A stretch of 41,625 nucleotides of DNA, from positions 1 through 41,625 of the forward strand of contig JADGAP010000010.1 in the NCBI GenBank assembly GCA_015231965.1. Reading direction: 5' to 3'. The notes below the pieces were generated by a model. That model was not told where the DNA came from and did no database searches. It saw only the letters and a program-made list of their open reading frames with translations. The translations under genes and the position numbers were made by a program. The stretch comes from Magnetococcales bacterium. Its GTDB lineage: Bacteria > Pseudomonadota > Magnetococcia > Magnetococcales > JADGAP01. Positions 16,424 to 28,607 of the stretch are shown one piece after another (positions within the stretch are counted from its first letter, which is position 1; every line of letters starts with the position of its first letter).

Positions 16424-17113
16424 TCACTTCCACCAGGCGCCGGGGGAGGCCCCATGGGCGACGCTGTGACAACGTTCGCAGATATAGAGGGAAAAAGCCA
16501 CACGACCGTGACATTGGCCGCAAAAACGGCCGCGAAAGATTTCATTCATGTTAATGTCATTGGAACCGACCTTGGCCTGAAAGGGTTCCGGATGGCAATT
16601 GGAGCAGGCCAGCCATTGGGTGTGGGCCTGATGGGGAAATTTGACGAAGGGCATGGTCTTGGTTTCGCTCATCAGCAGGTCCAGGTCTAGAACCTGCATG
16701 GTAGTTTCGCCCTTGAGATCGGCCCGGGGGTTGATGTGGCCCTGTTTCAAGGTTTGCACCCAGTCGATCTGCTCCCGGGGGCCGACGGGAAAGGGGGCCA
16801 ACGCCGTGACCGGGCTTTGCAACCGTCCGATGGCGGGGGAGGCGGGATCGTGCAGGCCATCCTCGGCCAACTCCTGGGCGCGGTAGAGGGCGGAACTCTC
16901 CACCGTCAGGGGGGCGGCGGCGGTGGCGACGGCGGGACCGGCGGGAACCGAATCGGCCCAGCGGGCGGCCTTGTCCAGCTTGGCCCGCAACTCCGGCGAG
17001 GGGACGGAGTCCGGCGGGACGGGGGGGGCGGCGGGCTCCGGACCTTGAGCGGGACATCCGCTCAGGGCCAGAACGCCGAGGACAATGAAGGGAAGGAGCC
17101 AGGCATGGTTCAT
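16424..17113 (-). CDS. Triheme c-type cytochrome lipoprotein (c7-like)
   Basis: Periplasmic multiheme cytochrome of 229 residues. The hydrophobic N-terminus ends in a lipobox-like LALSGC. A Pro/Ala-rich low-complexity stretch comes before a C-terminal heme domain (about 145-220) with three CXXCH motifs: CSNCH, CGQCH and CERCH. The pattern KFPHQAHTQWLACSNCH and NEIFRGRFCGQCHGRVAF fits the c(7)-type triheme domain family. ATG 17113 (MNHAWLLP) was preferred to an in-frame TTG at 17122; neither has a strong ribosome binding site. The gene is divergent from the kinase/NtrC pair, and a possible sigma-54 site lies about 80 bp upstream. It probably transfers electrons in the periplasm. Confidence 0.85.
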   Translation of the reverse strand: MNHAWLLPFIVLGVLALSGCPAQGPEPAAPPVPPDSVPSPELRAKLDKAARWADSVPAGPAVATAAAPLTVESSALYRAQELAEDGLHDPASPAIGRLQSPVTALAPFPVGPREQIDWVQTLKQGHINPRADLKGETTMQVLDLDLLMSETKTMPFVKFPHQAHTQWLACSNCHPEPFQAKVGSNDINMNEIFRGRFCGQCHGRVAFSLYICERCHSVAHGASPGAWWK

Positions 17114-17189
17114 GGGGGTCAAATCCCGGACCGCCCCGGGGCGGCGTCAGCGGCAAGCGGGGATGGAGTTTCGGTGGAACGAATCATGG

Positions 17190-17208
17190 GTTGCAAAAAC
17201 TTGACCGT
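17190..17208 (-). promoter_or_regulatory. Possible sigma-54 promoter for the triheme cytochrome
   Basis: On the minus strand GG and GC are separated by exactly ten bases, with a perfect TTGCA at the -12 element; the -24 element (CGGTCAA) keeps only the GG. It points to the cytochrome ATG about 80 bases downstream. The divergent operon encodes an NtrC-type activator. Chance matches to this sparse pattern are frequent in GC-rich DNA, so this is only a candidate. Confidence 0.25.
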
Positions 17209-17232
17209 CGTCGGGCGGGGGAGGGTTCCTCC

Positions 17233-19221
17233 ATGACGCCGCTGGACCCCTCGAACCTGCCCGAGGTGGATTCAGAGGGCCTCGCCCCCATCGCCTCTCG
17301 CCCCGCCGTCCCGGCGGTGTTGGACGACCGGGCACCGCCGTTTCGCCTGCTGCGCTATTTTTCCCTGGCCAGCTTCGTCGCCATGACCGTGGCGGCGCTG
17401 GCCCTGGGGGCTTTTTTCCGGCAGGTGGAGATGAACAACGTGCTGCGTCTGGGGGAGAGCCAGAACATCGCCCTCACCCGGGCCTTCGCTAACTCCATGT
17501 GGCCGGTGATCAGCGGCTTTCTCAAGGAGGGCAAGCCGGTGACCCGGGGCCATCCCCTGTCGCCCCATCTGGATCAGGAGCTGTCGGTCCTGATCAAGGA
17601 TCTGGCGGTGGTGAAGATCAAGATTTTCGACACCCACGGCCTGACCATCTATTCCACCGACCCCCGGCAGAGCGGCGAGGATCAAGCGAAAAACATCGGT
17701 GTGCAAGCGGCGCTGAAAGGCAAGGTGACCAACAATTTGATCCACCGCAAGGGCGTGCCTTCGTTTGACGGGGTGGTGGAGGATCGGGATCTCATCTCGA
17801 CCTACGTTCCGGTCTATCGGGCCGGCGAGGTGCGAGGGGTCTTCGAGCTGTATTACGACGTCACCCCGGTGCTGGAGCGAATGAACGCCACCCAGCAGCG
17901 GGTGACGGGGATGGTCGGGCTGCTTTTTGTGGTGTTGTACGGCATTCTCCACGTCATCGTCCGGCGGGCGGACCGCATCATGCGGGAGCAGCGGTTGCAG
18001 CTGAACCGCTTCGTCGATGAAATCGAGGCGATGAACGACACCCTGGAGCGGCGGGTGAAGGATCGCACCGAAGTGCTGCGCATCACCAACAAGGTGCTGA
18101 AGCAGGAGATTCTGGAGCGGCAACAGGCGGAGGCGGAGCTGCGCAAGCTCACCGGGGCGGTGGAGCAGAGCCCGGTTTCGGTGGTGATCACCGACGCCAT
18201 GGGCCAGATTGAATACGTCAACCCCAAATTTTGCGAGGTGACGGGCTACTCCCGGGAAGAGGCGCTGGGCAAAAATCCCAGCCTGCTCAAGTCCGGGGAG
18301 TCGCTGCCGGAGGCGTATCGCGAAATGTGGCGGGTGATCTCCAACGGCGGGGTGTGGCGGGGGGAGTTTCACAACCGGCGGCGGGACGGCGGGCTGTTTT
18401 GGGAGATGGCCACCATCTCGCCGGTGCGCAACAAGGCGGGGCGCATCACCCATTATCTGGCGGTCAAGGAGGACATCACCCAACGAAAATTGCACGAAAA
18501 GGCCCTGGAGGACGCCCGTCGCCACTCCTTTCAACAGGAGAAAATGGCGGCGGTGGGAACCCTGGCGGCGGGAATCGTTCACGAAATCGGCAACCCGATC
18601 ATGGCCATCTCCGGTCTGGTGGAAGAGCTGCGGGACATGACCCACGACGCCGAGGCGATCAACTTCCTGGAGATGATTCGCGAGCAGATCAACCGGCTGT
18701 CGGGGATCACCCGGGACGTTTCGGCCTTTTCCATGCCGCAAATGGACGAACCGCAGTTGCTCGACCTCAACGGCCTGGTGGAAGGGGCGATGCGGTTGAT
18801 GCGCTTCGACCGGCGGATGCGGCAGATCGAGCGGCGGCAGGACCTGGACCGGGAGCTGTCGGCGGTGATGGGCTCCGACAATCAGTTGCGGCAGGTGTTG
18901 ATCAACCTCATGATCAATGCCGCCGATGCCCTGGAAGGGGTGCAGGACCGCCCGCGGGAGATCGTGGTCTCCACCACCCGGGATGGGGAGGGGCGGGTGC
19001 GGCTGACGGTGGCGGACAATGGCGTTGGCATGGATCCTGAAACGCGAAGTCGCGCCCTGGACGCCTTTTTCACCACCAAGCCGGTGGGGCGGGGGACGGG
19101 ATTGGGGCTCTCGTTGTGCTACTCCATCGTGAGCGAGCATCACGGGAGTCTGGAGATCGAATCCGAACCAGGGGTGGGAACCAAGGTGCATATTGTGCTG
19201 CCGGCGGGAGACGACGGGTGA
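17233..19221 (+). CDS. Membrane PAS sensor histidine kinase
   Basis: Sensor kinase of 662 residues paired with the NtrC-type regulator that follows. TM1 is at about 42-62, a periplasmic sensor region at 63-220, and TM2 at about 224-243. A coiled segment leads to PAS (about 305-420), a His-phosphotransfer helix with GIVHEIGNPIMAIS (His450), and an HATPase domain with N-box NLMINAADAL, G1 DNGVGMD and G2 GRGTGLGLS. The GIVHEIGNP form of the H-box is typical of NtrB-like kinases. ATG 17233 has GGGAGG eight bases upstream. The stop overlaps the regulator start (GTGA). The sensor region matches that of the GGDEF-EAL protein at 12643-15147 (for example GVPSFDG and DLISTYVPV). Confidence 0.93.
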   Translation: MTPLDPSNLPEVDSEGLAPIASRPAVPAVLDDRAPPFRLLRYFSLASFVAMTVAALALGAFFRQVEMNNVLRLGESQNIALTRAFANSMWPVISGFLKEGKPVTRGHPLSPHLDQELSVLIKDLAVVKIKIFDTHGLTIYSTDPRQSGEDQAKNIGVQAALKGKVTNNLIHRKGVPSFDGVVEDRDLISTYVPVYRAGEVRGVFELYYDVTPVLERMNATQQRVTGMVGLLFVVLYGILHVIVRRADRIMREQRLQLNRFVDEIEAMNDTLERRVKDRTEVLRITNKVLKQEILERQQAEAELRKLTGAVEQSPVSVVITDAMGQIEYVNPKFCEVTGYSREEALGKNPSLLKSGESLPEAYREMWRVISNGGVWRGEFHNRRRDGGLFWEMATISPVRNKAGRITHYLAVKEDITQRKLHEKALEDARRHSFQQEKMAAVGTLAAGIVHEIGNPIMAISGLVEELRDMTHDAEAINFLEMIREQINRLSGITRDVSAFSMPQMDEPQLLDLNGLVEGAMRLMRFDRRMRQIERRQDLDRELSAVMGSDNQLRQVLINLMINAADALEGVQDRPREIVVSTTRDGEGRVRLTVADNGVGMDPETRSRALDAFFTTKPVGRGTGLGLSLCYSIVSEHHGSLEIESEPGVGTKVHIVLPAGDDG

Positions 19222-20675
19222 ATCCGGATCCAGGGGGGAACCTTCCGGCGGGGGAGCGGAGCGCCGGCATCGTCGCGGCGGAACCCGCCGACGGCTTGAC
19301 CGTGTTGGTGGTGGACGACGAACCGGCCATCCGGCAGGTGCTGCTCTCCACCCTGAAAAAGGCGGGCTATGACGCCGAAACCGCCTCCGACGGCCCCGAG
19401 GCCCTGCAACGGCTGCGCAAGGGCGACGTGGACGTCATGCTCTGCGACATCCGGATGCCCGGCATGGAGGGGATCGAGGTGATCAAGCGGGCGCGAGAGA
19501 TGGGGCTGGAGACCATCTTTCTCATGATGACCGCCCACGCCTCCATCGACACCGCCATCCTGGCCATGAAGGCCGGGGCCTACGACTATCTGACCAAACC
19601 CCTGCACAAGGAAAATTTGCTGCTTCGGCTGCGGCAAATCGCCAACATCATCGGTCTGCGGGATCAAAACCGCACCCTGCGCAGCTTGGTCCAGGAGGGG
19701 GAGCAGGAGAAGTGCCGCCCCATCTCGGCGGCGATGATGGATCTGGACCGGATGGTGCGCAAGGCCGCCCCGTCGGACTACACGGTGCTGATCACCGGCG
19801 AAAGCGGCTCGGGCAAGGGGGTGCTGGCGCGGCAAATGCACCGCCGCAGCCGCCGCTCCACCGCCCTCTTCGTGCCGGTCAACTGCGGAGCGATTCCGGA
19901 AAACCTGCTGGAGAGCGAATTTTTTGGTCACGTCAAAGGGGCCTTCACCGGGGCCGACAAGATCAAGAAGGGGCTCTTTCTCGAAGCCGACAAGGGCACC
20001 CTCTTTCTCGACGAAATCGGCGAGCTGCCGCTGCACCTGCAAGTCAAGCTGCTCCACGCGCTGGAGGAAAAACAGGTCCGCCCGGTGGGAAGCGAACAGA
20101 GCAAACCGGTGGACGTGCGGATCATCGCCGCCACCAACCGCAGCCTGGAAGATAAAGTGGCGGCGGGGAGCTTTCGCGAGGATCTCTATTTCCGGCTCAA
20201 CGTTTTTCACATCCATATCCCCCCCCTGCGACAACGACGGGATGACATTCCCCCGCTGCTGAACTATTTTCTGGAGAGGGGGGGGCGCCGCGAGGGGCGG
20301 GCCGGGGGGTTCGTGCTGGACGGCGAGGCGGAGGCGGCGCTCAAGGCCTACGACTGGCCAGGCAACGTGCGCGAAATGGAAAACGTCATGGAACGGGCCA
20401 TGATCCTGGCCGACGAGGGGATGATCGGCCTGTCGGAATTGCCCCGCCATTTCGAGCCCCCCGCCTCCTCGGAAGGCCCCGGCGTGAAATTTTCCTCTGG
20501 AGCGGAGGGGGGAACTCTGCGGGAACGCTTGCGGGCCATGGAGGCGCGGATCATCCTGGAGGCCATCGAACAGGCCGGAGGGGATCGCAAACTGGCGGCC
20601 AAGCAGTTGGGCATCGGGCTTTCCAGCCTCTACCGCAAGTTGGAGCAAGCCGATCTCCCCGACGTGTTGACGTAA
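19218..20675 (+). CDS. NtrC-family sigma-54 response regulator
   Basis: Response regulator of 485 residues. The receiver (about 28-140) has acidic VVDDE, phospho-acceptor Asp77 (MLCDIRMPG) and YDYLTKP. The AAA+ domain (about 165-395) has Walker A GESGSGKG, the sigma-54 contact loop GAFTGA, Walker B TLFLDEIGEL, and LRQRRDDIP. The Fis-type helix-turn-helix lies at the C-terminus (GGDRKLAAKQLGIGLSSLYRKL). I chose GTG 19218 since it overlaps the kinase stop by four bases and has GGGAG seven bases upstream; the longer open frame into the kinase gene is a shadow. Its targets are unknown. The flanking cytochrome operons are reasonable candidates. Confidence 0.93.
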   Translation: MNPDPGGNLPAGERSAGIVAAEPADGLTVLVVDDEPAIRQVLLSTLKKAGYDAETASDGPEALQRLRKGDVDVMLCDIRMPGMEGIEVIKRAREMGLETIFLMMTAHASIDTAILAMKAGAYDYLTKPLHKENLLLRLRQIANIIGLRDQNRTLRSLVQEGEQEKCRPISAAMMDLDRMVRKAAPSDYTVLITGESGSGKGVLARQMHRRSRRSTALFVPVNCGAIPENLLESEFFGHVKGAFTGADKIKKGLFLEADKGTLFLDEIGELPLHLQVKLLHALEEKQVRPVGSEQSKPVDVRIIAATNRSLEDKVAAGSFREDLYFRLNVFHIHIPPLRQRRDDIPPLLNYFLERGGRREGRAGGFVLDGEAEAALKAYDWPGNVREMENVMERAMILADEGMIGLSELPRHFEPPASSEGPGVKFSSGAEGGTLRERLRAMEARIILEAIEQAGGDRKLAAKQLGIGLSSLYRKLEQADLPDVLT

Positions 20676-20709: not shown

Positions 20710-20887
20710 AACCCGTCTTATTCATGAATTTCGTCGCGAAAGCGTCCAGGCCGCGTCAGGCCAAGGCGCGCGCCGCTTGACGACCGGAACCGTGCTATTG
20801 CACGGTGAGGATCGGCGAGCAAGCGCAACGCAGGCATGGCGCGGTCCTGGTGCGCTTGCAGCAGAAATTCATGAATTAAGACGGGTT
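20710..20887. mobile_element. 178-bp MITE-like element with about 23-bp inverted ends
   Basis: The left end AACCCGTCTTATTCATGAA continues as TTTC (20710-20732). The right end at 20864-20887 is its inverse with one extra base. No coding capacity is evident inside; it contains a hairpin ACCGTGC-TATT-GCACGGT (20789-20806). The right-hand 74 bp recur upstream of sbcD (7952-8025), and a degenerate end lies at 153-176. It occupies most of the gap between the NtrC-type gene and the Sel1-repeat gene, so it may alter expression of the operon that follows. No target duplication was seen. Confidence 0.65.
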
Positions 20888-20941: not shown

Positions 20942-21607
20942 ATGGGGAGCGGATGGGTGAAGACGGGGGTGTTGACCTTGGCGCTGCTGGCCGCTTGGCC
21001 GACTGTGGCGCGGGCCGACGCCGAGGAGGACTATCAGCGGGGGTTCGAGGCCTACCAGGACAACGACTGGATCAACGCCATCGCCATCCTGCGCAACGCC
21101 GCCAGCAGCGGGCACCTCAAGTCGATGGTGCTGCTGGGCGCGGTGCTGGACCGGGCCGAAGAGGATCAGGAGGCGGTGAAGTGGTACCGCAAGGCGGCGG
21201 AGATGGACAGTCCCGCCGGGGCCATGGGTCTGGGGCAGATGTACGACAAGGGTGAGGGGGTGTCGCGCAAGGATCCCGACGAGGCCTTCAAATGGTTCAG
21301 CAAGGCGGCGGAGCAGGGCCACGCCCCGGCCAAGTACGCCCTGGCCAACGCCTTTCGCCACGGTTTGATGGGGCAGCCGGTCAATCCGGATCGGGCCGCC
21401 CAGTGGCTCAAGGCCTCGGCGGCGGACAAATACACCCCGGCGATGATCGATCTGGCGGAGGTCTATCGCAAGGGGCTGTTGGGGGTCAAACCCGACGCCG
21501 ACGCCGGAGAGCAGCTGCGCAAGGAGGTGCGCGCCCTGGAAGCCCAGAGCCGCGAGGAGTCCACCGTGGTGGAAAAGGCCAAGCCCGCCCCCGCCAAGGG
21601 GAAGTGA
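20942..21607 (+). CDS. Periplasmic Sel1-repeat (TPR-like) protein
   Basis: Secreted helical-repeat protein of 221 residues. The signal peptide ends near VARA (residue 25). Sel1-type repeats follow, for example AVKWYRKAAEMDSPAGAMGL then GQMYDKGEGV, AFKWFSKAAEQGHAPAKYAL, and a third copy with AAQWLKASAADKYTPAMIDL. Such repeats usually form protein-protein scaffolds. AAGGAG six bases before the ATG supports the start. The gene opens a four-gene operon with a monoheme cytochrome (two-base gap) and two propeller proteins, suggesting an assembly or scaffolding role for that periplasmic complex. The specific partner is not identifiable. Confidence 0.85.
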   Translation: MGSGWVKTGVLTLALLAAWPTVARADAEEDYQRGFEAYQDNDWINAIAILRNAASSGHLKSMVLLGAVLDRAEEDQEAVKWYRKAAEMDSPAGAMGLGQMYDKGEGVSRKDPDEAFKWFSKAAEQGHAPAKYALANAFRHGLMGQPVNPDRAAQWLKASAADKYTPAMIDLAEVYRKGLLGVKPDADAGEQLRKEVRALEAQSREESTVVEKAKPAPAKGK

Positions 21608-21608
21608 C

Positions 21609-21971
21609 GTGATTCGCGCGCCGCGCTCCCGCCAGCCCGCCGCCGCCCGGGGGGGAAGGCGTTGGGTGGGGTTCGGGGTGGTCCTTCTGCTGGCCACCGG
21701 GGCGCTCCCCGCAGCGGCGGGGGACATTTTTCACGGCAAGGCACTTTACGAACAGCACTGCGCCCGCTGTCACGGGGAAAACGGGCGGGGAAAATTGCCC
21801 GGAACCCCGGATTTCACTTGGCGCGGCGGCCCGGCCAACGGGCTGCAACAACCGGACATCCGTCTCAGGGAGCGGTTGCAGGGCGGTTCCGGGACCTGCC
21901 CCGCCTTTCGCGGCGTGATGAGCGACATGGATCTACTGGACGTGATCACCCACTTGAGGTCTTTCCATTGA
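21609..21971 (+). CDS. Small monoheme cytochrome c
   Basis: Periplasmic class I-type cytochrome c of 120 residues starting at GTG. A signal peptide or N-terminal anchor spans about 18-38. One heme motif, CARCHGENGRG (51-61), is followed by a likely axial Met104 in FRGVMSDMDLLDVITHLRSF, the usual C-terminal helix of small c-type cytochromes. An extra Cys97 is unpaired within the protein. It begins one base after the Sel1 gene and its stop overlaps the next start (TGATG), so it is translated as part of the operon. It probably shuttles electrons to or from the propeller-protein complex (inference). Confidence 0.87.
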   Translation: MIRAPRSRQPAAARGGRRWVGFGVVLLLATGALPAAAGDIFHGKALYEQHCARCHGENGRGKLPGTPDFTWRGGPANGLQQPDIRLRERLQGGSGTCPAFRGVMSDMDLLDVITHLRSFH

Positions 21972-23098
21972 TGCCGCCATTCCCCACCCCCCTGAAACTC
22001 CTTCTGGCATCCACCCTCCTGCTGGCCACGGCGGGCTGCCAGGAGAAAAAACCCCCCGCCCCCTCCCCGGCGGATTACCGGGTGCTGGATACTTTCGAGG
22101 TGGGGGAGAACGTCTACGTCCGATCGTTGATGGTGGAGCCGGAAAAGGACGCCTTGTGGGTGGGCACCTCGGTGGGGGTTCACGAGGTGGGGCTGACCAA
22201 CCGGCTGGTGCGGCAAACCTTTACCCGGGAGCAGGGGCTGGCCAACGAATATGTTTTTTCCATCGGCAAGGACGCCGAGGGGGGGATCTGGTTCGGCACC
22301 AACGCCGGCGGGGCCTCGCGCTACAAGGACGGCAAGTGGCGCACCCTCTTTCCCATGCACGGTCTGGCCGACTACTGGGTCTACTCCTTCGCCAACCATC
22401 CCGACGGTTCGTTGTGGATCGGCACCTGGGCCGGGGTCAACCGTCTGGAGCCCGCTACCGGGCGAATGACCACCTACGTCAAAGAGTTGATCAACGAGTG
22501 GGTCTACGCCATGGGGGTGGACTCCAAAAAGCGGATCTGGTTTGGCACCGAGGGGGGGGTCAGTCGCTTCGACGGCAAGCAGTGGGTCTCCTGGACCCAC
22601 GCCGACGGCCTGGGAGGGGGCAACGAGGAGAACGCCCCGGCCAGCGCCAACACCGGCCTGGGCACCCGCAACCGCCACGATCTGGGGGTGTTGAGCGGCG
22701 GTGCCCCGACCTACAATCCCAACTACGTCTTCTCCCTGGTGGTCCACCCCGACGACACGATCCACGCCGGCACCTGGGGCGGCGGCGTCTCCCACTTCGA
22801 CGGCAAGAAATGGCGCAACGCCACCACCAAGGACGGCTTGCCGGGCAACATCGTCTACAGCATGGTCCGGGATCCCTTCGGCAACGTCTGGGCGGGGAGC
22901 AACAACGGGCTGGGGGTTTGGCATCAGGGCAAGTGGTCCTTGTTCAGCGACAACATCAAGCTCCAGGGGGAGAACATCTATACCTTGGCGGTCACCCCCC
23001 AGGGGGAAATTTGGGCGGGGGCGCGGGGCAAGGTGGCGCGAATCGGTCTGCCGGGCGAGACCGCCCGAGACGGCGGTCAGAGCGGGAAAGGGAAATAG
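21971..23098 (+). CDS. Lipoprotein with a seven-bladed regulator-type propeller
   Basis: This 375-residue protein has a lipobox-like LATAGC (Cys23), then one beta-propeller domain. Seven blade motifs of the two-component-regulator-propeller type are visible: LWVGTSVGV, IWFGTNAGG, LWIGTWAGV, IWFGTEGGV, IHAGTWGGG, VWAGSNNGL and IWAGARGKV. Between blades 4 and 5 is an inserted loop (GNEENAPASANTGLG onward). Such propellers are best known as periplasmic halves of hybrid two-component sensors, but here no kinase is fused. The start overlaps the cytochrome c stop. It is paralogous to the next gene. A role in sensing or in binding a partner is likely; the ligand is unknown. Confidence 0.82.
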   Translation: MPPFPTPLKLLLASTLLLATAGCQEKKPPAPSPADYRVLDTFEVGENVYVRSLMVEPEKDALWVGTSVGVHEVGLTNRLVRQTFTREQGLANEYVFSIGKDAEGGIWFGTNAGGASRYKDGKWRTLFPMHGLADYWVYSFANHPDGSLWIGTWAGVNRLEPATGRMTTYVKELINEWVYAMGVDSKKRIWFGTEGGVSRFDGKQWVSWTHADGLGGGNEENAPASANTGLGTRNRHDLGVLSGGAPTYNPNYVFSLVVHPDDTIHAGTWGGGVSHFDGKKWRNATTKDGLPGNIVYSMVRDPFGNVWAGSNNGLGVWHQGKWSLFSDNIKLQGENIYTLAVTPQGEIWAGARGKVARIGLPGETARDGGQSGKGK

Positions 23099-23101
23099 AC
23101 A

Positions 23102-24622
23102 ATGGATGGAAAATGGTTAGCGGCAGTGACCTCGATGATGGTCGCGGTGGCGGGCGTCTCCTACTACGCCGGAACGCAGCAACAGGGGGAGGCCCCGCCG
23201 CCGGTTTCGCCCTCGGTCGCCTCTCCCCCGGTGAAGCCCCTGGGAGTCGCTCCGGCGGCCCAGGCGACGCCCAAGGCTCCCGCCGCCGCATCGTCGGCTC
23301 CGGCGGCTCCCGGAACGCCCGCCGCCTCGCCCGCCGCGACCGGGGTGCCGGGGGAGATTCGGGCGGCCCCGTTGGCCCCGGGGGCGGTGGTTCCCCCCAA
23401 CCATCGGCCCATGGACCTCCCGCCGGGCATGGCGGCCCCTTCCGCCGTCAAACCGGGAGTGCGCTTCACCCACTTCCGGGTGGGAACCCGCAACGTCAAG
23501 GATATGCTCACCGAGGGCGACTCCGTCTGGGTGGGCACCTCCGGCGGGGTGATCCGCTATGACACCGTCACCGAGGAGTACAAGCTCTTCGACAATCAAA
23601 ACGGCAGCCTGCTGGCCAACGGCGTGTTTCACGTCGGGCGGCTCTCCAAGCAGCGGATTTCGGTGGGAACCTACGGCGGCGGTCTGTCGGTGTTGGACCA
23701 ATCCACCATGAAGTGGGAAAATTTCAACATCAAGGACGGTCTGGCCGACGCCTTCGTCTACGACGTGATGGAGACCCCGGAGGGCGACCTGTGGGTCGCC
23801 ACCTGGTCGGGGGCCAACCGGATCAAGGGCGGCGATTTGAAGGACCGCTCCAAGTGGGAAACCTTCACCGTGGAAAACACCCAGGGCGGCCTGCCCAACG
23901 ACTGGGTCTATGGCCTAGCCAACGGCAAGAACGGCGAGGTGTGGCTGGCCACCGAGGGGGGCCTGGCCCGTTTCAAGGAGGGCCAGTGGGACCACTGGAC
24001 CCACAAGGAGGGGGTGGGCGCTCCCTACGAATTGGTCAAGGGACAGAGCGATTTTCAGAACGATCCGGGGCGCACCTCCAGCCATCACGCCCGGCAAAAG
24101 CAGGAGCAGGGGTTGGGGGAGGTGACCACGGCCTACAATCCCAACTACGTCATCTCCCTGGCGGTGGACCGGGAGGGGGTGGTTTGGTGCGGCACCTGGG
24201 GGGCGGGGCTGGCCCGCTTCGACGGGAAAAAGTGGACCAACTACGCCATGAACGACGGTCTGCCCTCCAACTACATCTTCATGCTCCACCAGGATGAAGA
24301 GGGGCGGCTTTGGGTGGGCACCAGCAAGGGGCTGGCCCGTATGGAGAAATCCGGCGGATTCACGGTCATGACCACCGCCGACGGCCTCTACACCAACAAC
24401 GTCTTCTCCATGGCCCGCAGCCACGATGGCTCCCTGTGGGTGGGCAGCTTCGGCGGCGTCGCCCGCATCTATCCCGAGGGATCGGCCCCCGCTCCGGCTC
24501 CAACGCCAACGCCAGCGGTTCAGGTTCCCGCGGCCCCGGTTCCGGCGGCTCCGGTTCCCGCTCCGGCGGTTCCGGCGGTTTCGGCCCCGACGACCCCGGG
24601 GAAAGCGGCGCCCTCGGTCTGA
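23102..24622 (+). CDS. Membrane-anchored seven-bladed propeller protein
   Basis: This 506-residue protein has one N-terminal hydrophobic segment (about 5-24) and a long Pro/Ala-rich linker to about residue 105. Seven blades follow (VWVGTSGGV, ISVGTYGGG, LWVATWSGA, VWLATEGGL, VWCGTWGAG, LWVGTSKGL, LWVGSFGGV), then a Pro/Ala/Val-rich tail. The loop between blades 4 and 5 is enlarged as in its upstream paralogue, and both share YNPNYV just before blade 5. It starts three bases after the previous stop. The last 103 bp overlap the 3' end of a convergent gene (24520-25284). It probably faces the periplasm, tethered by its N-terminus; its function is unknown. Confidence 0.82.
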   Translation: MDGKWLAAVTSMMVAVAGVSYYAGTQQQGEAPPPVSPSVASPPVKPLGVAPAAQATPKAPAAASSAPAAPGTPAASPAATGVPGEIRAAPLAPGAVVPPNHRPMDLPPGMAAPSAVKPGVRFTHFRVGTRNVKDMLTEGDSVWVGTSGGVIRYDTVTEEYKLFDNQNGSLLANGVFHVGRLSKQRISVGTYGGGLSVLDQSTMKWENFNIKDGLADAFVYDVMETPEGDLWVATWSGANRIKGGDLKDRSKWETFTVENTQGGLPNDWVYGLANGKNGEVWLATEGGLARFKEGQWDHWTHKEGVGAPYELVKGQSDFQNDPGRTSSHHARQKQEQGLGEVTTAYNPNYVISLAVDREGVVWCGTWGAGLARFDGKKWTNYAMNDGLPSNYIFMLHQDEEGRLWVGTSKGLARMEKSGGFTVMTTADGLYTNNVFSMARSHDGSLWVGSFGGVARIYPEGSAPAPAPTPTPAVQVPAAPVPAAPVPAPAVPAVSAPTTPGKAAPSV

Positions 24623-25284
24623 TCGGCGCTCCGCGCGTCCAGGAACGATGGGGACAAGGTGGAGATGACAAAGCGTCGGCTGTAGGCGGGCAGCAGCCGA
24701 CGCACCCATTTCAGATGGAACAACACCTTTTTCCGTTGCACCGGATCGTCCAGATTGTCCATCCCTTCCAGACCGGCGGCGGCGCTCATCAGCATCAGGG
24801 CCCGCCGCCGTTCCACGCGACGCCACCGCGTCATCCGCTCCACCGCCCGGTGAATCGTGGGATCCACCCCCGCGTCCTCCTGCAACTCCATGGCCGCCGT
24901 TCGTTGCGCCAGTTGGGAAAACTCCCGCACCACGGTGCGGACGTAGCGGACCCACAGGCGGTCCGCCACCACAATCGCCGCCACGTTGACCAGCATCATG
25001 ATGCCCACCGCCCGGGCGGTCTCCCGGGCCAACTCCGGCAGCGGCCCGCCGTGGGCCGAGGCGTGGATGCGGAACAGGTGCTGGTCCAAAATGTCGCGAT
25101 ATCGATAGTAGAGATAGACCATCACCCCCCCCACCAGCAGGGTTTGCAGCAGCAGCAACGCCTTGAGCATCCAGCTCTGAATCTGATGGTCGATCAATGG
25201 ATGGTGTCGTTGGTCCTTGCCGCTGGGGCAGGTGGGGCAAACGGCGGACTTGACGTTGCGAAACAGAAGATCGAAGGGTGCCAT
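24520..25284 (-). CDS. Two-TM membrane protein with cytoplasmic CPTC motif, function unknown
   Basis: Predicted inner-membrane protein of 254 residues. A cytoplasmic N-terminus with CPTC (possible metal or redox site) precedes TM1 (about 39-58), a short periplasmic loop, and TM2 (about 85-105). A basic helical region follows (WVRYVRTVVREFSQLAQRTA) that looks like a HAMP-type exit helix. The C-terminal tail is Gly/Ala/Thr-rich and lies antisense to the end of the propeller gene. It begins 23 bases after the seven-heme cytochrome gene and is the last gene of that operon. Its architecture parallels the first gene of the operon (26126-26683). I do not recognise a family. Confidence 0.7.
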   Translation of the reverse strand: MAPFDLLFRNVKSAVCPTCPSGKDQRHHPLIDHQIQSWMLKALLLLQTLLVGGVMVYLYYRYRDILDQHLFRIHASAHGGPLPELARETARAVGIMMLVNVAAIVVADRLWVRYVRTVVREFSQLAQRTAAMELQEDAGVDPTIHRAVERMTRWRRVERRRALMLMSAAAGLEGMDNLDDPVQRKKVLFHLKWVRRLLPAYSRRFVISTLSPSFLDARSADQTEGAAFPGVVGAETAGTAGAGTGAAGTGAAGT

Positions 25285-25307
25285 GGGATGACAATCGCTC
25301 CGGAGTT

Positions 25308-26102
25308 CTACATGTCGTGACAGGTCAGGCAAAGGGACGAACCCTGATTGTTGACCACCAACTGGCCGTGGCGCTGGGTATAGCCCTTGTGACAGGTGAC
25401 GCAGCTCACCTTGCCGTCGGGCAGTTGCATCGCCCCGGGAAGCCGGGCCAGGGGGTGATACCCCGCCGCCGGATTTTCCACGTAGGGAACCCCGATGGGA
25501 TGGCTCAACGAGGAGCCCTCATGGCTGGCCATGCCCGAATCGGAGAGATAAACCTTGCCCCCCTCCCCCCGGGTGACGTGGCAGGCGATGCACTGCTGCG
25601 AGAAGGAGTCCACCTGATAGGGTTCGCCTGTGGCCTTGGCCTTGGCGTTCAAATGGCCGGAACGGGTGACTGAGGCCCCCTTTTCCGCCATCTGTTCAAA
25701 AAAGGCGGGGGGATGGCATTGCATGCAGAAGGCCCCTCCCCGTTTTTCGCCGCGCAACATCGCCCCTGGTTCGCCATGGATGGGGTGGCAGGTGCTGCAG
25801 GTCAGGGCTCCCTTCCAGTCCTTGGGCAGACCGGCGGGGGTGGGCATGGAGGGGGGAATGCCCGAGGGGTGGCTCAAGCGCACCGCGTCGGGATGGCATT
25901 CGGCGCACAATTTTTCCTGATCGGCCACCAGCAGGGTCGCCTTTTCCGGGGAGGCGGGGGGGCCGCCCAGGTGGCAGGTTTCGCAGCGCCCGTCCTTGAG
26001 ATGCCCCGCCCCGGGGACCGCCGCCCCGCCCCAATGGATTCCCAGGGCGAGAAGGAGCAATCCTCCCAGCCACGGCGCGCTTTTTCCTCCTCGCATGCCC
26101 AT
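25308..26102 (-). CDS. Seven-heme c-type cytochrome (doubled-CXXCH type)
   Basis: Periplasmic multiheme cytochrome of 264 residues with seven CXXCH motifs: CETCH, CAECH, CSTCH, CMQCH, CIACH, CVTCH and CLTCH. The spacing and the SHPSGIP and CHPIHG elements resemble doubled-CXXCH domains. A signal peptide (LGGLLLLALGIHWGGAA) starts the protein. I chose ATG 26102, preceded by GGGAGG six bases upstream; a GTG at 26129 overlapping the previous stop lacks a ribosome binding site. It sits between two small membrane proteins in a three-gene operon convergent to the propeller operon, suggesting electron exchange with a membrane partner (inference). Confidence 0.88.
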   Translation of the reverse strand: MGMRGGKSAPWLGGLLLLALGIHWGGAAVPGAGHLKDGRCETCHLGGPPASPEKATLLVADQEKLCAECHPDAVRLSHPSGIPPSMPTPAGLPKDWKGALTCSTCHPIHGEPGAMLRGEKRGGAFCMQCHPPAFFEQMAEKGASVTRSGHLNAKAKATGEPYQVDSFSQQCIACHVTRGEGGKVYLSDSGMASHEGSSLSHPIGVPYVENPAAGYHPLARLPGAMQLPDGKVSCVTCHKGYTQRHGQLVVNNQGSSLCLTCHDM

Positions 26103-26125
26103 CCTCCCCCCTCCCGTTCCGTCGG

Positions 26126-26683
26126 TCACAGGCGCATGGTAAACGTTTTGCGCCGCAGGGCCGCCAGGGTTTGGGTCAAGCCGCCCCCCAGGTCGGGATG
26201 CTTGAGTTGCAGTTGGGCGGCGGCCAGGTCGGTGAGTTCGCTGATCTGATCGTAATGTTCTTGCAGCGCCCCGGCGGCTTGGGCCAGCTCATGGCGCGCC
26301 TTGTGCAAGTCGTCGTCCTCGCGGTTTTTGGCGGGGGGCAGGGGGCCGTCGGCGATCATGCGGTCCAGATCCTTGGTGAAGCGGAACAACGGCCCCGCCA
26401 CCCGCAGGGTGCTGTAGAGGGCGATGGACCAGGTGATCACCCCCCCCAGGGCGACGATGATCAATCCCGTCAGCACCATGGCCGGCCCCAGTTGGCGGCG
26501 GCTCAGGGAGACATTGCCGATGACCGCGGCGTAGTCCTCGCCGCGTCCGCTGGCTACCAACAGCAGCATGCCCACCAGGGCGATGAGGGCCACCATCCCC
26601 ACCAACAGGGCGATGCGCCCCACCCGGCGCAACCGGTGGACCATGGGGGGGAGATCTTCCATCTCCGGCGCCACGCGAGTCAT
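26126..26683 (-). CDS. Two-TM HAMP-like membrane protein, function unknown
   Basis: Inner-membrane protein of 185 residues. TM1 is at about 24-44, a short periplasmic loop follows, and TM2 is at about 69-93. Then comes a HAMP-like segment RVAGPLFRFTKDLDRMIADG and a helical tail rich in Leu/Gln/His. It looks like a receptor transmembrane-HAMP module without an output domain, so it may transmit a signal from the periplasm to an unlinked partner. GGGAGG ten bases before the ATG supports the start. It is the first gene of the operon with the seven-heme cytochrome and diverges from the heme-motif diguanylate cyclase gene. Confidence 0.72.
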   Translation of the reverse strand: MTRVAPEMEDLPPMVHRLRRVGRIALLVGMVALIALVGMLLLVASGRGEDYAAVIGNVSLSRRQLGPAMVLTGLIIVALGGVITWSIALYSTLRVAGPLFRFTKDLDRMIADGPLPPAKNREDDDLHKARHELAQAAGALQEHYDQISELTDLAAAQLQLKHPDLGGGLTQTLAALRRKTFTMRL

Positions 26684-26739
26684 GGGGCGAACGCCTCCCG
26701 GCGGGAGCGAAGGTTGCGGACGGGAACAAGAATCAAATC

Positions 26740-26756
26740 CGCTATTGCAATGCCAC
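26740..26756 (-). promoter_or_regulatory. Possible sigma-54 promoter for the seven-heme cytochrome operon
   Basis: On the minus strand TGGCATT and a GC exactly ten bases after the GG match the sigma-54 layout (TGGCA of the -24 element is perfect; the -12 element reads TAGC instead of TTGC). It lies about 57 bases upstream of the HAMP-like gene start. As with the site near 17.2 kb, this is a pattern match only. Confidence 0.28.
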
Positions 26757-26837
26757 GTTCTTCGTATATCGTCAAGCACGGCGGTGCCTTCGGGCGAAAT
26801 CAGAGCATTTTTCTCATCCTTGGGAAGCAGGTGGGGC

Positions 26838-28607
26838 ATGAGCGGACGGATCGAGGCGGCAACGCAAACCCAGAGCCTGGCGGGGAACGGCGGGACGGAG
26901 GCCCCCCTGACCGGACGCTTTCGGCGCATCGGCCATCGCATAATGTGGCAGGTGGGGTTGGCGGTTTTGGCGGGGCTGAGCGCCTTGTTGGCGGTCTTCA
27001 TCACCCACCAGCAGACGGACCTGCTCAAGGAGAACACCCACGACCTGCGCACCCTCACCGAAAGCGTCCGCCGGGGGCTGGAGACGGTGATGCTGGCGGG
27101 CTACGCCGACATCGCCGAACAGTACGCCGACAGCCTCAAGGGGATCCCTGGTGTGGTGGAACTGCGCCTGATGCGCCGCACCGGCGAGGAGGCCTTTCGC
27201 GACAACCGCACCCTTCGCGAGGTCAACCGCCGCCTCGGCGGCGACACCTTCGAGGAACGGGAGGAGGAGAAAATCGTTCCCGTACTTCCCGCAGACCACG
27301 CCGGACTGAAAAAGGCGGCGACCGGCGAGGAGGCGACCTATCGGGAGTTGGGTGCCGACGGCCCCCCCCTGCTGACCTTTCTCGCCCCCATCCCCAATCG
27401 CAAGGCGTGTTGGCGCTGCCATGGCAAGGAGGAGGAGGTGCGGGGGGTGTTGAAGCTCTCCGTCAGTCTGGCCCGGATGGAGGACAACTTCCGTCAGGTG
27501 CGGTTCCAGGCGCTGTGGATGGGGGCGGGGGCGTTGAGCTTGATCCTGCTGTTGGCCTGGGGGTTGGTGCGGCGTCACGTGGCCTTGCCCATCGTGCGCA
27601 TGTCGGAGGCGGTGCGGCAGGTGGCCGACGGTCATCTGGAACATCGGGTTCCGGTGGTGGGGGCCGATGAACTGGCCCTCATGGCCCGGGATTTCAACCG
27701 CATGAGCCAAGCCTTGCAGCAAAGCTACAAGGGATTGCAGGACGAGCAGGACAAACTCACCACCATCATCCTCTCCGCCCGGGAGGGGATCGTGGTGACC
27801 GACCGGCAGGGCGACGTGGTGCTGGTCAACCCCTCGGCGGAGCGGCTGCTGGGCAAGGATCGGGAGGAGATCCAGGCGCAAGGGTTCGAGGCGTTGCTGG
27901 ACGATCCGGAGTACATCGCCGCTTTTCTCTCCCGCGAGGGGGGGAATTTGCCCAAGACCCACGTCTACAAGGGGCGGGTGCTGAATTTTTACGCCGCCAC
28001 CATCTTCACCCACGACGGCGAGAAGGTGGGCTCCTGCGCCCTGATGCGGGACGTGACCCAGGAAAAACGGTTGGAGGAGCAACTGCGTCAGCTCTCCGTC
28101 ACCGACGGCCTCACCGGGCTGTTCAACCGCCGCCGCTTCGATGAGGCGATGGTCGAGGAGATGAAACGGGCCCAACGCTACGGCTTGTCGGTGGGGTTGA
28201 TCCTCTTCGACGTGGACCACTTCAAAAAATTCAACGACACCCACGGTCACGACCAGGGCGACCGGGTGTTGCAGGCCATCGCCGCCCAGATGAAGGAGCA
28301 TTTCCGCGAAATCGACCACCCCTGCCGCTACGGCGGCGAGGAGTTCTGCGCCATCCTCCCCAGCACCGGGATCCCCGGGGCGCAGTACGCGGCGGAGCGG
28401 CTGCGGCAAAAAATCGAGGCCATGGTGGTGGACGGACTCAAGGTGACCATCAGCCTCGGCGTGGCGGTCTACCCCTACTGCGAGGCGGAAAACCCCGATG
28501 AACTGCTCAAACAGGCGGACAACGCCCTCTACGTGGCCAAAAAACAGGGGCGCAACCAGGTCGTGGTGGCGGGTGGGCTGCCGGAATCCTTGATGAATGG
28601 GGAGTGA
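26838..28607 (+). CDS. Diguanylate cyclase with periplasmic c-type heme motif
   Basis: Membrane signalling enzyme of 589 residues. TM1 (about 36-56) and TM2 (about 226-244) bracket a periplasmic domain that contains one CXXCH, CWRCH at 191-195, just before the strand GVLKLSVSL. HAMP (245-297), PAS (about 305-425) and GGDEF (about 430-585) follow. The active site is CRYGGEEF, and the inhibitory I-site REID lies five residues upstream, so product-inhibited c-di-GMP synthesis is expected. A heme attached in the sensor would make it a redox or gas sensor, in keeping with the cytochromes around it. ATG 26838 is preceded by AGGTGGGG. It is transcribed away from the seven-heme cytochrome operon. Confidence 0.9.
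   Translation: MSGRIEAATQTQSLAGNGGTEAPLTGRFRRIGHRIMWQVGLAVLAGLSALLAVFITHQQTDLLKENTHDLRTLTESVRRGLETVMLAGYADIAEQYADSLKGIPGVVELRLMRRTGEEAFRDNRTLREVNRRLGGDTFEEREEEKIVPVLPADHAGLKKAATGEEATYRELGADGPPLLTFLAPIPNRKACWRCHGKEEEVRGVLKLSVSLARMEDNFRQVRFQALWMGAGALSLILLLAWGLVRRHVALPIVRMSEAVRQVADGHLEHRVPVVGADELALMARDFNRMSQALQQSYKGLQDEQDKLTTIILSAREGIVVTDRQGDVVLVNPSAERLLGKDREEIQAQGFEALLDDPEYIAAFLSREGGNLPKTHVYKGRVLNFYAATIFTHDGEKVGSCALMRDVTQEKRLEEQLRQLSVTDGLTGLFNRRRFDEAMVEEMKRAQRYGLSVGLILFDVDHFKKFNDTHGHDQGDRVLQAIAAQMKEHFREIDHPCRYGGEEFCAILPSTGIPGAQYAAERLRQKIEAMVVDGLKVTISLGVAVYPYCEAENPDELLKQADNALYVAKKQGRNQVVVAGGLPESLMNGE

Follow-up and report, generated by a model that had tools for sequence, protein, structure and literature searches.

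The question raised by this locus is what two free propellers of a regulator type might do in the bacterial envelope. Reg_prop propellers are usually read as sensor domains, typically as the periplasmic half of hybrid sensor kinases, and the locus, from a Magnetococcales bacterium, encodes two of them as separate proteins, here termed PropA and PropB. The stretch of DNA that was analysed, referred to below as the window, is 41,625 nucleotides long and constitutes the entire contig C11 of a 3.8-Mb assembly; all coordinates are positions in this window unless another contig is named.

The propeller pair and its operon

The propeller genes lie at the end of a run of genes on the plus strand, which comprises, together with one divergent gene, the following features:

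16424–17122, minus strand: triheme c7-type cytochrome, divergent from the kinase gene (NCBIfam nanowire_3heme, TIGR04257, E=1e-16), adjoining the kinase in most Magnetococcales copies.
17191–19221, plus strand: histidine kinase with two transmembrane (TM) segments, its own periplasmic domain of ~160 amino acids, and PAS, HisKA and HATPase domains (Pfam, TM scan, sensor-domain comparison).
19305–20675, plus strand: NtrC-type response regulator with receiver, sigma54 AAA+ and Fis HTH domains (Pfam); orthologues in module-bearing genomes are 52–66% identical.
20942–21607, plus strand: periplasmic Sel1-repeat protein (Pfam Sel1, E=2e-22), conserved in position; the likely start is ATG 20942, the reading frame opening at 20777.
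21609–21971, plus strand: monoheme cytochrome c (CxxCH) with a signal peptide (Pfam Cytochrome_CBB3/Cytochrom_C); its stop overlaps the PropA start, and it precedes PropA/PropB in most loci.
21971–23098, plus strand: PropA, a seven-bladed Reg_prop propeller with a lipoprotein signal (Cys23); Pfam Reg_prop E=1.2e-26, orthologues 54–69% identical.
23102–24622, plus strand: PropB, a seven-bladed Reg_prop propeller with an N-terminal anchor and an Ala/Pro-rich linker and tail; Pfam Reg_prop E=5.5e-26, orthologues 58–71% identical.

A first-pass annotation, made from the sequence alone, had described two paralogous, stand-alone, seven-bladed propellers, and on this point coordinates, domain matches, blade motifs, predicted fold and mutual identity all agree. 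Reg_prop (PF07494) scores 89.7 bits in PropA and 87.7 bits in PropB against a curated Pfam cut-off of 20.4, and is the sole Pfam domain above cut-off in either chain, with no Y_Y_Y, kinase or receiver domain in either; each chain also contains seven blade motifs of the W-x-G-T type. Of the structure predictions that the annotation had proposed, those of the single propellers, made with AlphaFold2 from alignments of 20 relatives for PropA and 18 for PropB, gave confident propellers (pLDDT 90.1 and 91.1, respectively; pTM 0.89), the nearest folds being Reg_prop sensor domains. Indeed, the top Foldseek match of both is the Bacteroides hybrid sensor BT4663, in its periplasmic Reg_prop domains (E=4e-16 for PropA and 8e-19 for PropB). 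At 36% identity (E=1e-46) the two proteins are paralogues, and in a tree of 64 propellers all PropA sequences form one clade and all PropB sequences another, with long branches in between, such that the duplication must be old. No Reg_prop genes beyond these two were found in the 3.8-Mb assembly.

The association of the propellers with a cytochrome c gene, and with an unfused kinase/regulator pair ending 1.3 kb upstream, was likewise seen as first described. The pair of propellers recurs in 16 of 61 relatives, every time as a tandem, and the gene order kept in Magnetococcales relatives is kinase, NtrC, Sel1, cytochrome c, PropA, PropB, the divergent triheme c7 gene usually standing next to the kinase; the operon genes are also found in further Pseudomonadota. 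PropA is missing from three genomes (G1006, G1057 and G759), in which PropB and the remaining operon are kept as far as the contigs reach, and PropB is accordingly the more central member. Start codons were assigned by rule throughout, and many of the genomes are fragmented metagenome-assembled genomes (MAGs). An 834-residue PropB frame in G245 was considered as a fusion and rejected: the conserved PropB starts within this frame, and the sequence ahead of that start is PropA read out of frame.

Several other genes in the vicinity deserve mention. On the minus strand after PropB there is a trio (24520–27058) in which small membrane proteins (26126–27058 and 24520–25332) flank a seven-heme cytochrome with doubled CXXCH motifs (25308–26129). 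The same trio occurs near the propellers in G013, G022, G043 and G024, and in another order in G992, and on account of this proximity the trio may belong to the propeller system. At 26568–28607, on the plus strand, is a PAS/HAMP diguanylate cyclase with a CxxCH motif (CWRCHG) in its presumed periplasmic part, which may be a heme-based sensor; relatives of it with one CxxCH stand beside PropB in several Magnetococcales genomes. In G319 and G361 (loci L088 and L089) the operon contains two tandem kinase genes, with two triheme cytochromes and a thioredoxin of the TlpA-like kind encoded upstream.

Loops and membrane anchoring

Both propellers carry an enlarged loop between blades 4 and 5:

22610–22726, plus strand: PropA loop, with N-T-G-L-G-T-R.R-H and Y-N-P-N-Y-V, near-invariant over 31 PropA sequences; AlphaFold2 confidence falls here to 65.
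24017–24148, plus strand: PropB loop, with H-H-A, invariant over 33 PropB sequences, and Y-N-P-N-Y; modelled by AlphaFold2 as short helices.

The first-pass annotation had taken this to be the same loop in both proteins, with a shared YNPNYV. The loop and its YNPNY are indeed common to both families and near-invariant (31 PropA, 33 PropB), but the bodies of the loops are unlike, reading NTGLGTR.RHDL in PropA and HHA.qk.e.gL in PropB. Similarly, the contrast drawn there between one lipoprotein-like and one TM-anchored propeller needs amending: PropA has a lipobox (LATAGC), but the N-terminus of PropB is a weakly hydrophobic segment that falls under a simple TM threshold, and the type of anchoring varies among relatives between lipoprotein, anchor and cleaved signal peptide. 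Most PropA proteins have a lipobox and those of loci L028 and L029 cleaved signals; PropB has a lipobox in L029 and a cleaved signal in G361. In other words, attachment to a membrane is not conserved among these propellers.

Co-occurrence with an OmcE-type cytochrome

In several genomes the propeller module is adjacent to a gene for a tetraheme cytochrome (four CxxCH) that matches the OmcE filament subunit 7TFS with E=4e-31, and which by this homology to a solved filament subunit can be classed as OmcE-type. The cluster around it further encodes an isomerase of the PpiC type, triheme c7 and NHL-repeat proteins, an 11-heme cytochrome, proteins of the ResB/CcsA type and, where the barrel would be, a large protein with no Pfam match. 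This is the content of the Uet gene set, in which UetA is a tetraheme cytochrome, UetB an isomerase, UetC a porin, UetDEG triheme cytochromes, UetHI NHL proteins and UetJ an undecaheme cytochrome (PMC10734462). A Methylobacter porin–cytochrome cluster proved to be a different system.

Among 398 Pseudomonadota genomes, 22 of which contain an OmcE-like gene, all 19 with propellers have such a gene, as against 3 of the 379 without them (Fisher 1e-29, with kinship not removed); propeller-positive and propeller-negative genomes alternate within several families of this sample. In another order, the gene is present in 11 of 11 further propeller-positive genomes and in none of 18 propeller-negative controls, and it is also found in all four named MAGs with propellers. 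An OmcE-like tetraheme cytochrome therefore accompanies every propeller module found (34/34), these counts not being phylogenetically independent. Moreover, the propeller and OmcE/Uet loci share a contig in 15 genomes, being either adjacent or up to ~30 kb apart, and this holds for all four closed genomes (G245, G361, G855 and G919); in the Magnetococcales genome studied here the OmcE/Uet locus sits on a different contig, C122. Taken together, the tie between the propeller module and the OmcE wire is strong.

The converse does not hold. OmcE occurs without propellers in G009 and G039, each with a sigma54 site before the gene, such that the module is not present whenever OmcE/UetA is, and OmcE may not be strictly dependent on the propellers. 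A further genome seemingly lacking propellers, G016, has an NtrC orthologue at a contig end (C121, 365–1708), and here the absence is probably an assembly gap. Within its genus, many genomes of which were searched, G361 alone possesses the module, which suggests that it has moved as a unit by transfer.

Two side observations concern the cytochromes themselves. The 11-heme UetJ-type cytochrome (L101, 2–2416, with equivalents in G319, G245 and G361) opens with an OmcE-homologous stretch, SDIR.TKHNLS (E ~1e-30), as if an OmcE-like unit had been fused to it, perhaps as the cap or base of a filament. The Magnetococcales genome studied here (G000) also has two more OmcE-like genes outside the Uet-type cluster, at C104, 3169–3972 and C155, 29020–29826.

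Sigma54 promoters at the OmcE gene

NtrC-type activators work at sigma54 promoters. For each OmcE gene, 350 bases of upstream sequence were scored against the −24/−12 consensus, for which the maximum is 17.3. A site was found in all 25 genomes with a visible NtrC, with scores of 14.8–16.5 and positions between −60 and −204 relative to the assumed start; a score of 14.8 is reached by 4% of random 350-base windows. From this consistency it follows that the kinase/NtrC pair probably controls the wire through the OmcE promoter, the adjacent NtrC being the presumed activator. Upstream of the site, ~100–190 bases above the promoter, a TTCC-N6-8-GGAA palindrome occurs in 12 of 18 distinct loci, against a background of 0.09 per 220 bp; near the kinase gene the same enhancer-like palindrome gave no consistent match. 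Before the Sel1–cytochrome c–PropA–PropB stretch the best sigma54 scores are those of the background, and the propellers are thus not obviously within the sigma54 regulon.

Sensor or part of a cytochrome system

In four genomes, representing about three lineages (G855, G919, G955 and G401), ccmFGHI precede the propellers in place of kinase and NtrC, with cytochrome c and mostly Sel1 being kept. Pfam identifies ccmF, ccmH and CycH/CcmI at these loci (families CcmF, CcmH and CycH), and the place of CcmG is taken by a redoxin, except in G955, where none was seen. No close NtrC exists anywhere in the G401 genome, and the kinase/NtrC pair is absent from the locus in G855, G919 and G955. In none of the four does the OmcE gene have a sigma54 site, the best scores in 350 bases being 11.3–13.4. 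The propellers and the cytochrome therefore outlive their linkage to the two-component pair.

The kinase itself points in the same direction. Its periplasmic domain lies between the two TM segments, and is not detectably related between Magnetococcales and other clades, over which the kinase core is 33–55% identical (44–60% outside G319 and G361) and the propellers 55–62%. The first-pass annotation had proposed either a split sensor or a structural role in a periplasmic complex. Given the ccm replacement, the unconserved sensor domain of the kinase and the loss of PropA from operons that retain PropB, the weight shifts from the former to a part in the cytochrome system: stand-alone propellers with a cytochrome, perhaps structural, fit the data, and the split sensor is disfavoured.

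As a split redox sensor, PropA and PropB with cytochrome c, and perhaps Sel1, would sense a ligand or the redox state of the envelope and thereby gate the kinase, which is not fused to them, with the regulator then driving OmcE from sigma54 and Sel1 acting as ExoR does on ExoS/ChvG. Such an arrangement would account for the usual sharing of one operon with kinase and NtrC, for a fold nearest to sensor domains, and for OmcE sigma54 sites that are present with NtrC and missing from ccm-type genomes; it also has a published precedent in ExoR, a periplasmic regulator of the ExoS/ChvG system (PMC3460628, PMC4550343). It is nonetheless rather unlikely, in view not only of the ccm-type loci and the divergent kinase domain but also of the missing Y_Y_Y domain. 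A sensing role in those genomes in which the kinase is present would be compatible with this evidence.

The proposed role of the module

On the comparisons above, the propellers look like a dedicated and previously undescribed accessory of an OmcE-type wire, and not like the missing half of a sensor. The reading that we favour, with a probability of roughly 0.55, is an envelope module for the biogenesis, assembly or supply of the OmcE/Uet cytochrome, including its maturation or electron supply. PropA, PropB, the monoheme cytochrome c and Sel1 would make up a complex that lies in the periplasm or faces the outer membrane and is accessory to the OmcE-type (UetA) extracellular cytochrome system, with the kinase/NtrC pair switching on OmcE from its sigma54 promoter. 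The biochemical role that we infer for the propellers is that of scaffolds, whose conserved loops (RH in PropA, HHA in PropB and YNPNY in both) would keep cytochrome c, the incoming OmcE cytochrome, or both in place; this holding step may serve the loading of heme, transfer to the pore in the outer membrane, or the supply of electrons. A role in making or feeding the OmcE/UetA cytochrome is favoured by the heme-attachment neighbours in one operon type and by a likeness in fold alone to propellers such as YCF48, which are known assembly platforms. Against it stand the two genomes with OmcE and its sigma54 site and no propellers, the dispensability of PropA in three genomes, the retention in most genomes of kinase, NtrC and propellers in one operon, as a sensor would also predict, and the small number of ccm-type cases (four genomes, about three lineages).

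A related proposal, which we consider clearly unlikely, is that the propeller/cytochrome/Sel1 complex is a biogenesis checkpoint that monitors or performs the loading of the OmcE-type cytochrome into the outer-membrane machine and reports through the kinase to NtrC. Were this so, sigma54 transcription of the wire subunit would be coupled to its assembly, as in flagellar assembly, where sigma54 is used.

It is improbable that the propellers act in direct electron transfer, docking the monoheme cytochrome c so that it relays electrons between the triheme cytochromes of the periplasm and the Uet conduit of the outer membrane. The cytochrome c gene does lie directly next to PropA or PropB and stays with the propellers in the kinase/NtrC and ccm operons alike, and triheme c7 genes are nearby; the propellers, however, have no redox centre, the cytochrome is less conserved among loci than they are (33–50%), and what replaces kinase and NtrC is a set of heme-loading and not respiratory genes. 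That these are ordinary stand-alone Reg_prop proteins with an unrelated role, for example in binding polysaccharides, which Bacteroides Reg_prop domains sense (BT4663), and that their link to OmcE is genomic hitch-hiking by a patchy, probably horizontally transferred family, is highly improbable in the face of a 34/34 co-occurrence that spans several lineages, although gene order is reshuffled and the loci can be as much as 20–30 kb apart.

Relation to known systems and biological significance

The best matches in sequence and fold are the seven-bladed propellers of the Reg_prop hybrid two-component sensors BT4663, BT3049 and BT4673. Unlike these, the present proteins have one propeller each and no Y_Y_Y domain, the kinase is unfused, and the two paralogues are free and accompanied by a cytochrome. 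YCF48 and PorZ, both among the weaker fold matches, are propellers that serve the assembly or secretion of another complex, but neither PropA nor PropB belongs with them by sequence, the PorZ model giving E=1e-8, far below its cut-off. As in ExoR–ExoS(ChvG)–ChvI, a periplasmic Sel1 protein goes with a sensor kinase and a regulator (PMC4550343), but here the regulator is NtrC-type and Sel1 is kept in ccm-type operons without the kinase. With its tetraheme UetA/OmcE, PpiC-type isomerase, large barrel-position protein, triheme c7, NHL proteins and 11-heme UetJ, the co-occurring locus resembles the Geobacter OmcE filament and the Tenderiales/Gallionella cluster for undecaheme electron transfer (Uet), but PMC10734462 includes neither the NtrC pair nor the module of propellers, Sel1 and cytochrome in its list of Uet genes. 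The literature on Uet and cytochrome nanowires that was searched, a scope that excludes the original descriptions of Uet (Eddie 2022) and of the OmcE structure, makes no mention of propellers, and the novelty of the module is limited to that scope, in which no earlier description was found. A literature search on a magnetosome link returned nothing on regulator propellers.

The overall emerging picture is of a portable, conserved module of two propellers, cytochrome c and Sel1 that tracks the OmcE/Uet locus in Magnetococcales and in Pseudomonadota beyond them. The module would provide named candidate factors, and a regulator, for the maturation, export, energising and regulation of cytochrome filaments, and where the NtrC pair is attached, a sigma54 promoter can be predicted for the gene of the wire. 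More generally, Reg_prop propellers may have been turned to a use other than sensing.
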